Part shown: in pieces, positions 46,974-48,201 of the stretch
How positions within the stretch are numbered: position 1 is the stretch's first letter
Layout: every line of letters starts with the position of its first letter
NCBI RefSeq assembly: GCF_000148725.1
Contig: NZ_GL476320.1
Coordinates: 823,175-887,174, forward strand
Length of the DNA: 64,000 nucleotides
From: Roseibium sp. TrichSKD4
GTDB lineage: Bacteria > Pseudomonadota > Alphaproteobacteria > Rhizobiales > Stappiaceae
Direction of reading: 5' to 3'
Position numbers and translations under genes: made by a program
The notes under the pieces: model-generated
Told to the model about the DNA's origin: nothing
Database searches by the model: none
The model's input: the letters and a program-made list of their open reading frames with translations, nothing else

Positions 46974-47123
46974 TCTTTTGATCCTTGATGTGTTTTTGGG
47001 CAAAGCCCATCCAGCTAACGCTGATAATTGCCCTCCTGATATCAGCTAGATGCGGTGGGCAGCAATGGGTATGAAGCCAGCGGGGCGGGAGAAACTGCTG
47101 CTGATTTTTATCAGCGCATAAAG

Positions 47124-47160
47124 AAAAACACCCACCGGGGGAGGACCGGTGAGTGTTTTT
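47124..47160 (-). ncRNA. CcsR-like hairpin and terminator after the first DUF1127 gene
   Basis: A 15-base stem closes a seven-base loop that reads UCCUCCC on the minus strand, followed by TTTTTCTT. On the minus strand the one imperfect position is a G-U pair, while on the plus strand it would be a C-A mismatch, so the minus-strand RNA is the functional one. It resembles the terminal hairpin of CcsR ('cuckoo') small RNAs, with a shorter anti-Shine-Dalgarno motif than the array at 47696-47819. Confidence 0.6.
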
Positions 47161-47266
47161 GGTCTGCATCTGGCCATGGTGCAGGCGAATTCAATTCGTC
47201 TTCATGGCCGCGGCAGAGGAGAGTGGGCTGCTGGCAGGTGCCGCGCTCATCACCCTCAAGCGCACA

Positions 47267-47416
47267 TTACTTCATCGCGCCGCGTGCAACGGTGGAGATG
47301 TCTGCACGGCTGATGCCGAGGTCGTCCAGCTCACGATTGCTGAGGCGGGACAGCTCGTCATAAGTTGAGCGGTAACGTTTCCAGTTTTGGTAAGAGCGTA
47401 CAACAGAGTCCAACAT
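47267..47416 (-). CDS. DUF1127 small protein (first copy)
   Basis: A 49-residue basic protein of the DUF1127 family. It starts MLDSVVRSYQNWKRYR and has the family pattern ELSRLSNRELDDLGISRADI. Such proteins are abundant in alphaproteobacteria; in Rhodobacter one (CcaF1) binds RNA and influences maturation of the CcsR small RNAs transcribed with it. A CCUCC-loop hairpin lies 107 bases downstream. The second copy at 47838-47987 has the same length. Confidence 0.88.
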   Translation of the reverse strand: MLDSVVRSYQNWKRYRSTYDELSRLSNRELDDLGISRADISTVARGAMK

Positions 47417-47695
47417 GGTTAAGGCCTTTCTATCTTATGGCCATGGCACCGCGTGTCGGCGTCTGGCCCGTTCCTTTCGAATGATCATAAGATAAGACTG
47501 TTTAAAACGATTAGGTAGTAGGCCTTCTGCAAGTCAGCTCTGCCAAAAATGCAAGTCACCAAATAGTTAATATGGCCTCAGAACCTTGTGCTTCGTCAAA
47601 GTTACAACGTGTTTGTTTGCATGTTGCACGAAGTTACACGGCAAGTTGAATTTTCTGGGTGTTTTTATTTGGATTGCAAATTTCTGGTCCAGAAA

Positions 47696-47737
47696 AACGT
47701 CACCCGCCGGTGGGAGGAGGTACCGGCGGGTGACGTT
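47696..47737 (-). ncRNA. CcsR-like hairpin 3 with CCUCCUCCC loop, also the terminator
   Basis: A perfect 16-base stem around a ten-base loop. On the minus strand the loop reads ACCUCCUCCC and the stem is followed by TTTTTCT, a strong Rho-independent terminator. The loop contains exactly the CCUCCUCCC motif that defines the CcsR small RNAs of Rhodobacter and the wider 'cuckoo' family. It is the last of three tandem hairpins after the second DUF1127 gene. Confidence 0.78.
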
Positions 47738-47742
47738 ATTCA

Positions 47743-47774
47743 GAGGCAAGATTGGGAGGAGGAGTTCTTGCCTC
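47743..47774 (-). ncRNA. CcsR-like hairpin 2 with CCUCCUCCC loop
   Basis: A nine-base perfect stem (GAGGCAAGA and its complement) with a 14-base loop that reads ACUCCUCCUCCCAA on the minus strand. It lies five bases from the terminator hairpin, so together they match the two-hairpin layout known for one CcsR unit. Confidence 0.72.
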
Positions 47775-47777
47775 AAA

Positions 47778-47819
47778 CGTGTTCTTCGGCTTGGGAGGAG
47801 GAGGTAGCCTCGGAACACG
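47778..47819 (-). ncRNA. CcsR-like hairpin 1 with CCUCCUCCUCCC loop
   Basis: An outer seven-base stem (CGTGTTC/GAACACG) and an inner four-base stem (GGCT/AGCC) separated by a small internal loop. The apical loop on the minus strand contains CCUCCUCCUCCC. It begins 19 bases after the stop of the second DUF1127 gene. The stem is less regular than in the other two. Confidence 0.68.
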
Positions 47820-47837
47820 ATCCTCATATAGTGACGC

Positions 47838-47987: not shown

Positions 47988-48201
47988 TTTACTCTCTTGA
48001 CAGACGGCCAATCTTGCGTGTGGCCCGTTCGTCTTTGCGATGACCAATATCTAGTTCGCGAATTCAAACCTTTGAAGCCCTGCGGGCGCATGTCTGTCAT
48101 GCATTTTGTGCAATGCATCAAATAAATTTTGGAAAACCGCGAAAAAGACGGTATATACTCGTTAAAAATGAAAGTTTTAAGCCCTTTTGTGCACTGCGGC
48201 G

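Follow-up and report, generated by a model that had tools for sequence, protein, structure and literature searches.

A three-hairpin RNA array of the ar14 family behind a DUF1127 gene in Roseibium sp. TrichSKD4

Three tandem hairpins on the minus strand of a 64-kb stretch of Roseibium sp. TrichSKD4 DNA (the whole of which is called the window) are, judged by sequence and predicted structure, an ordinary new member of the ar14 family in the DUF1127-linked CIN1 arrangement. The array probably encodes an NfeR1-like small RNA that acts in trans and is made as the 3′ portion of a transcript starting before DUF1127. The Rfam ar14 model (RF02344) aligns over its full length (1–123 of 123) with minus-strand positions 47695–47822, and the score of 75.1 bits lies above the curated cut-off of 58.8. 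An earlier account made from the letters alone, referred to here as the sequence-only reading, had placed the hairpins in the cuckoo group of anti-Shine-Dalgarno RNAs and linked them with DUF1127. Both assignments stand, a gene matching PF06568 being found directly before the array, and the distance of 19 bases that it gave from this gene to the start of the array agrees with the coordinates (Table 1).

Table 1. Coordinates of the array, of the two DUF1127 units and of the putative control elements in the window.
Feature	Position	Strand	Basis
Hairpin 1	47778-47819	-	7+4 pairs and a 3x3 internal loop; read from sequence and fold
Hairpin 2	47743-47774	-	9 pairs; read from sequence and fold
Hairpin 3	47696-47737	-	16 uninterrupted pairs, then TTTTT; read from sequence and fold
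Anti-Shine-Dalgarno loop 1, CCUCCUCCC	47793..47801	-	Motif search, unpaired probability
Anti-Shine-Dalgarno loop 2, CCUCCUCCC	47754..47762	-	Motif search, unpaired probability
Anti-Shine-Dalgarno loop 3, CCUCCUCCC	47712..47720	-	Motif search, unpaired probability
ar14-family small RNA, three hairpins	47695..47822	-	RF02344 75.1 bits, fold, covariation
Hairpin 3 and its TTTTT tail, probably the intrinsic terminator of unit 1	47693..47737	-	Sequence and fold
DUF1127 protein 1, 49 aa	47838..47987	-	PF06568 50.2 bits, cut-off 23.3
Putative LsrB/VtlR-type operator: TGCA-N6-GCAT (48099-48112) overlapping palindrome GCATGACAGACATGC (48088-48102)	48088..48112	-	Position and conservation
Putative -10, TAGATAT (many aligned relatives: GAATTATAT)	48047..48053	-	Read from alignment
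DUF1127 protein 2, 49 aa	47267..47416	-	PF06568, 59.9 bits
Degenerate box of unit 2, TGCATTTTTGGCAG	47540..47553	-	Alignment; GCAT end in 15/24 panel members
Remnant array of unit 2	47112..47202	-	Model R1 20.6 bits, E 0.00052 (rough)
Terminator hairpin of unit 2, loop UCCUCCC	47124-47160	-	Fold; exact motif absent

All three copies of CCTCCTCCC in the window lie on the minus strand inside the array. The mean expected per window is 0.49, and at least three copies, placed anywhere, were seen in 2 of 100 shuffles, while three spaced copies on one strand within 130 bases were not produced by any of 1000 first-order Markov sequences of window length. The minus strand of the array folds into three hairpins carrying the motifs in their loops, with an energy of -64 kcal/mol (z -7.88) that was equalled by none of 200 shuffles, and each motif base is unpaired with a probability of at least 0.996. 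Motif search, fold and unpaired probabilities thus bear out the proposal of three tandem minus-strand hairpins with anti-Shine-Dalgarno loops, and the last hairpin is, as had been claimed, perfect over 16 bp. It is the only perfect one, hairpin 1 being weaker. From sequence and fold, hairpin 3 and its T tail are probably the intrinsic terminator of the unit; the hairpin is absent from the output of a terminator scan in which loops go to 8 bases at most, and the T run behind it is interrupted in many of the relatives in an alignment of 31 arrays. An 86-codon open frame also runs through the array on the minus strand (47567-47827), with the loops read as Leu-Leu-Leu-Pro or Leu-Leu-Pro-Pro; it is a mechanical by-product of the repeats and shows no sign of use.

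The array shares with ar14 its three hairpins, each with CCUCCUCCC unpaired, on stems that differ in sequence yet pair, and with CIN1 the short DUF1127 gene beside CCUCCUCCC hairpins on the same strand. The sequence-only reading had favoured the CcsR type, but the closest family is ar14/NfeR1; the covariance-model search that it had suggested gave a full-length match above the cut-off for ar14, CcsR1 (RF02791) being rejected at 22.2 bits against a cut-off of 65.3. Two other models also scored under their cut-offs, 6C RNA (RF01066) with 33.3 bits (cut-off 47) and snoU82P with 23.9 bits (cut-off 42). The cuckoo family is said to range over two to four hairpins, as reportedly set out by Reinkensmeier and Giegerich in 2015. 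RS0680a of Rhodobacter sphaeroides is presumably CcsR. Two stem loops are described for RS0680a, three hairpins for SmelA075 and four for SmelA099, each with CCUCCUCCC and with variable stems (PMC3927594), while in the published text on ar14 RNAs, of which NfeR1 is the founder, three hairpins with an ultraconserved loop are given as the common plan (PMC10746234, PMC7143759). The statement that known units have two hairpins was therefore mistaken, since three are on record for ar14 and four for SmelA099 (PMC3927594, PMC10746234), and the surprise expressed at a triple array falls away, the design being already in print for ar14/NfeR1. Nor is the arrangement new, since the pairing of a short DUF1127 gene with a CcsR-like RNA already bears the name CIN1 (PMC10253847). 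It is very unlikely that the array is nevertheless an RNA of CcsR type controlled by RpoH in heat or oxidative stress. Such RNAs belong to the same group, carry the same loop and have DUF1127 in the same operon according to the text of the reports (PMC3927594, PMC10253847), and a weak CcsR1 match is present, but this match falls far under the cut-off, the hairpins number three and an LsrB-type box stands upstream.

Covariation was examined in an alignment (A1) of 31 of the 33 listed unit-1 arrays, from which the shorter and divergent L150 and L151 were omitted; the source list held only arrays with three exact motifs behind DUF1127, identical arrays being entered once. Compensatory changes on both sides were found in 23 of the 28 consensus pairs, and the share of cells that pair was 96.0%, compared with 85.3% for shuffled and 34-45% for slid versions; these counts are inflated by the kinship of the rows, which the slid versions share. 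The covariation score was matched by none of 500 shuffles, while one of five measures, that of further pair types, was unexceptional, its value being reached by 46 of 500. The expectation that stems would change and loops stay is upheld by these both-side changes, although the invariance of the loops in A1 is partly by construction because three exact motifs were a condition for entering a row. In minimum-energy folds of 64 clusters of at least two motifs (window and L001-L080), 190 of 199 motifs lay wholly inside a hairpin loop, and 9 of the clusters had one motif outside. If the hairpins acted in cis, ending the DUF1127 mRNA and stabilising its 3′ end while the loops titrate a protein instead of pairing with mRNAs, it would be left unexplained why the stems change and the 9-nt loops stay exposed and identical, and action in trans through the same loops is published for NfeR1 in the text at hand (PMC10746234, PMC7143759). 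Such a cis role would be in keeping with the terminator stem of a second unit, which is kept where the loop motif is gone, but we consider it highly improbable. Some relatives, namely L150 (1280-1950, motif orientation), L152, L154, L034 and L041, have long runs of this unit, with 9 to 12 copies of CCTCCTCCC in about 360 to 680 bases.

Of the 87 genomes in the family of G001, 85 have an ar14 match and 61 one above the cut-off, and exactly two matches are present in 62 (hand count). A class-wide draw of 115 genomes under stricter filters gave five with a match, and the one above the cut-off was the centre genome itself. TrmFO, encoded downstream of the array, shares 81-85% identity with its five best records, whose labels are Roseibium, Labrenzia, Stappia and, for one of them, alphaproteobacterium, and it is 91% identical to that of G053, the best among eight genomes compared. 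The window thus belongs to the family of these genera, Stappiaceae. Among 80 named trmFO loci, the stretch surveyed at each contained an array of at least two motifs in 44 and an array directly behind DUF1127 in 24. In the latter the first loop follows the DUF1127 stop by 20-33 bases, the distance in the window being 37. The UvrA end was present in 10 of the 80 trmFO stretches, four of which have arrays (L001, L002, L003 and L005).

Upstream of DUF1127 gene 1 lies a box, TGCACAAAATGCAT, of the form TGCA-N6-GCAT, 125 bases before the gene start and, counted by hand from the putative -10, at about -72; that -10 would place the transcription start near 48040. A generic sigma-70 scan gave no minus-strand site in the putative -10 region. 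By itself the box is not significant (8 copies in the window against 4.18 expected; at least 8 in 9 of 100 shuffles), and because it is so common the reading as an LsrB-type operator rests on its place and its conservation. Both were followed in 45 loci (the window, L001-L003, L005 and L121-L160), of which five had no DUF1127 match and one, L159, was left out with a single motif and no box (3 mismatches). In the remaining 39, the window and 38 relatives with the array behind DUF1127, the box is exact in 30 and has one mismatch in 9, standing 117 to 154 bases ahead of the DUF1127 start. An overlapping palindrome, GCATG-N-C-N-G-N-CATGC, is present in 30. Over 121 stretches (window, L001-L080 and L121-L160), an exact box lay within 600 bases upstream of 55 of the 74 arrays directly behind DUF1127, 19 having none, and of 20 of the 51 other arrays, with a background of 0.11 per kb; these counts are not independent, since the genomes surveyed are related. 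In a panel of 24 rows hand-picked from the 45 loci, the other 21 being omitted as more distant or differently arranged, the box was exact in 24 of 24, as against 6 of the 15 omitted loci with an array of at least two motifs behind DUF1127; the panel figure overstates the box, as the choice of rows favoured it, and the 39-locus count is the fair one. The promoter alignment holds 17 of the 24 panel rows.

In the published text NfeR1 is activated by LsrB, whose site, TGCA-N6-GCAT, spans -72 to about -57, and its promoter is CTTAGAC-N17-CTATAT (PMC10746234). In the window the conserved box stands before DUF1127, and the array is preceded by a CTATAT that has no good -35. An internal promoter is possible because of this CTATAT, and the main rival to our reading is that, like NfeR1, the array has a promoter to itself, lying within the last part of the DUF1127 gene, and that the linkage with DUF1127 is a matter of position only. 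The hexamer, at 47826-47831, would fit as the -10 for a start at hairpin 1 and recurs in the NfeR1 promoter (PMC10746234), and there are Rhizobium and Sinorhizobium arrays with no DUF1127 directly before them, of which those in L044, L075 and L079 have an exact box some 90 bases ahead of the first loop. No -35 can be recognised, however, GTCGCA at that place being poor, the hexamer is not kept in relatives (ATTTAGAG, CATATAGAG and ACATAGAG), and the conserved box stands before DUF1127, all of which make this explanation unlikely.

A gene for an LsrB-like regulator, of the type that may bind the putative operator, is present in G053, the nearest genome compared. It lies beside trxB, and the LysR protein that it encodes is 62% identical to the one beside trxB in a Sinorhizobium. 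Among solved structures this protein is closest to 9hh1 (433.5 bits, the next reaching 115), deposited with a paper on A. tumefaciens OxyR and LsrB and, from the text available, one or other of the two (PMC11975290). VtlR is described as switching on three DUF1127 genes in Brucella (PMC12595884) and atu1667, an orthologous gene for a small protein, in Agrobacterium (PMC7486931). For the Brucella genes under VtlR and for the short DUF1127 proteins of Agrobacterium, no tie to an adjacent cuckoo RNA was found in the published text examined. No match to the Brucella VtlR 15-mer was present at the operator even when 3 mismatches were allowed. The two Brucella loci contain it with 2 mismatches, 84-118 bases ahead of the DUF1127 domain; matches of this sort also turned up in 21 of 200 and 7 of 200 shuffles.

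With the box conserved before DUF1127, the small RNA is most likely the 3′ part of an LsrB/VtlR-switched DUF1127 message. We propose that a LysR regulator of this type, bound at about -72, would recruit RNA polymerase and that a single transcript would run through DUF1127 and then the array, ending at hairpin 3. An RNase E cut, as for ccaF1-CcsR, or a separate internal promoter would yield an RNA of about 125 nt, whose three interchangeable loops may pair with the purine-rich, GGAGGAGG-like Shine-Dalgarno regions of several mRNAs and so block translation. Release of CcsR RNAs from ccaF1 by RNase E is reported in the text of two papers (PMC8625941, PMC10253847), and NfeR1 is described with three redundant loops and as a repressor of ntrB and two transporter mRNAs (PMC10746234). 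Among 57 genes of the window no clean complementary ribosome site was found for the one loop sequence used, the best site having -15.3 kcal/mol with interruptions and the median being -8.1; this is expected of a trans-acting RNA, yet lends it no support.

The window contains a second DUF1127 gene with a remnant array behind it. Across the panel, this unit 2 has two exact motifs in 14 rows, one in 2 and none in 8; where there are two they occupy the first and last hairpins, with a motif-less hairpin between them in most folds. The window, L122, L123, L124 and L121 lack an exact motif in unit 2, the longest remnants being 7, fewer than 5, 8, 6 and 7 bases, respectively, and in L122 the terminator loop bears no trace of the motif. 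All five have three of three motifs in unit 1 and have the unit 2 terminator stem, which is present where the loop motif is not, so that a terminator function exists independently of the loop. These four relatives have the highest UvrA-end identity to the window, L124 tying with L138. Close relatives that keep the stems but not the loop motif, named in the sequence-only reading as a finding that would refute its proposal, are therefore seen for the paralogous unit 2 but not for the reported unit 1, where the window and each of the 23 panel relatives carry three exact motifs, some of these rows having been chosen for their motifs.

The distal half of the unit 2 box is altered in the same genomes whose unit 2 is motif-less. 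At least one exact loop motif was found in 15 of 15 panel members with GCAT and none in 8 of the 9 without it (Fisher p 1.2e-5). On a uvrA tree of 23 of the 24 rows (L136 was omitted, having no uvrA match in 1000 bases) the two traits change 3 and 2 times, a single independent pair has support and 12 of the 20 inner branches are open, and L127, with two motifs in unit 2, is as near the window as L122, with none. From so few changes the coupling of box and loop, be it by loss or by gain, is not significant once kinship is counted. The leader of DUF1127 gene 2 (47411-47498, minus strand) contains a hairpin element that is strongly conserved (ACGGGCCAGACGCCGATCCGCGGTGCCATGGCC in many relatives) and lies just ahead of a ribosome-site region, AAAGGCC. 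Over 21 sequences 9 pairs are predicted, of which 1 has a compensatory change, so the element is conserved in sequence without covariation support; it has no Rfam match.

Membership of the ar14 family is in itself routine, and the evolutionary lead is a modest one. A possible though rather doubtful history is that the ancestral cuckoo locus was one LsrB/VtlR-controlled unit, in which a DUF1127 protein and a ribosome-site-blocking RNA served one response. Sinorhizobium NfeR1 would have arisen by loss of the intervening DUF1127 gene, leaving the operator directly before the RNA, while in the family of the window the unit would have doubled, the second copy in several members losing the box half-site and the RNA loops together and keeping protein and terminator. 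If this is true, unit 2 is a natural separation of the job of the DUF1127 protein from that of the RNA. The proposal joins two strands described in the published text, LsrB acting on NfeR1 in Sinorhizobium (PMC10746234) and VtlR acting on DUF1127 genes in Brucella (PMC12595884) and on atu1667 in Agrobacterium (PMC7486931), and one operator before a DUF1127-ar14 unit would account for both. A whole-word search of 5.39 million papers found none naming NfeR1 and DUF1127 together, the main cuckoo and ccaF1 papers being outside its reach, and no priority is claimed.

Of the known systems, ar14/NfeR1 (Smr14C2, SmelC397; RF02344) is matched in full length above the cut-off, with three hairpins and CCUCCUCCC in each loop; the model consensus likewise has a T-rich end after hairpin 3, and NfeR1 has an LsrB-type box upstream. 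NfeR1 differs in that an own promoter is described for it (PMC10746234), whereas here the DUF1127 gene stands between box and array. The SmelA075 and SmelA099 RNAs, likened by description and not by model, show the same loop on each of three or four hairpins (PMC3927594). Short Agrobacterium DUF1127 proteins share the small size of the proteins encoded here but are described as acting on PhoR through protein contact (PMC12501420), and the Brucella DUF1127 genes under VtlR share control of LysR type (PMC12595884). CcsR1-4 with ccaF1 (Rhodobacter sphaeroides; CIN1 locus) resemble the array in having anti-Shine-Dalgarno hairpins immediately after a DUF1127 gene, and differ in the length of CcaF1 (71 aa, as against 49 aa in the window), in the two stem loops given for RS0680a (PMC3927594), as against three here, and in the RpoHI/RpoHII promoter described in Rhodobacter sphaeroides (PMC10253847).
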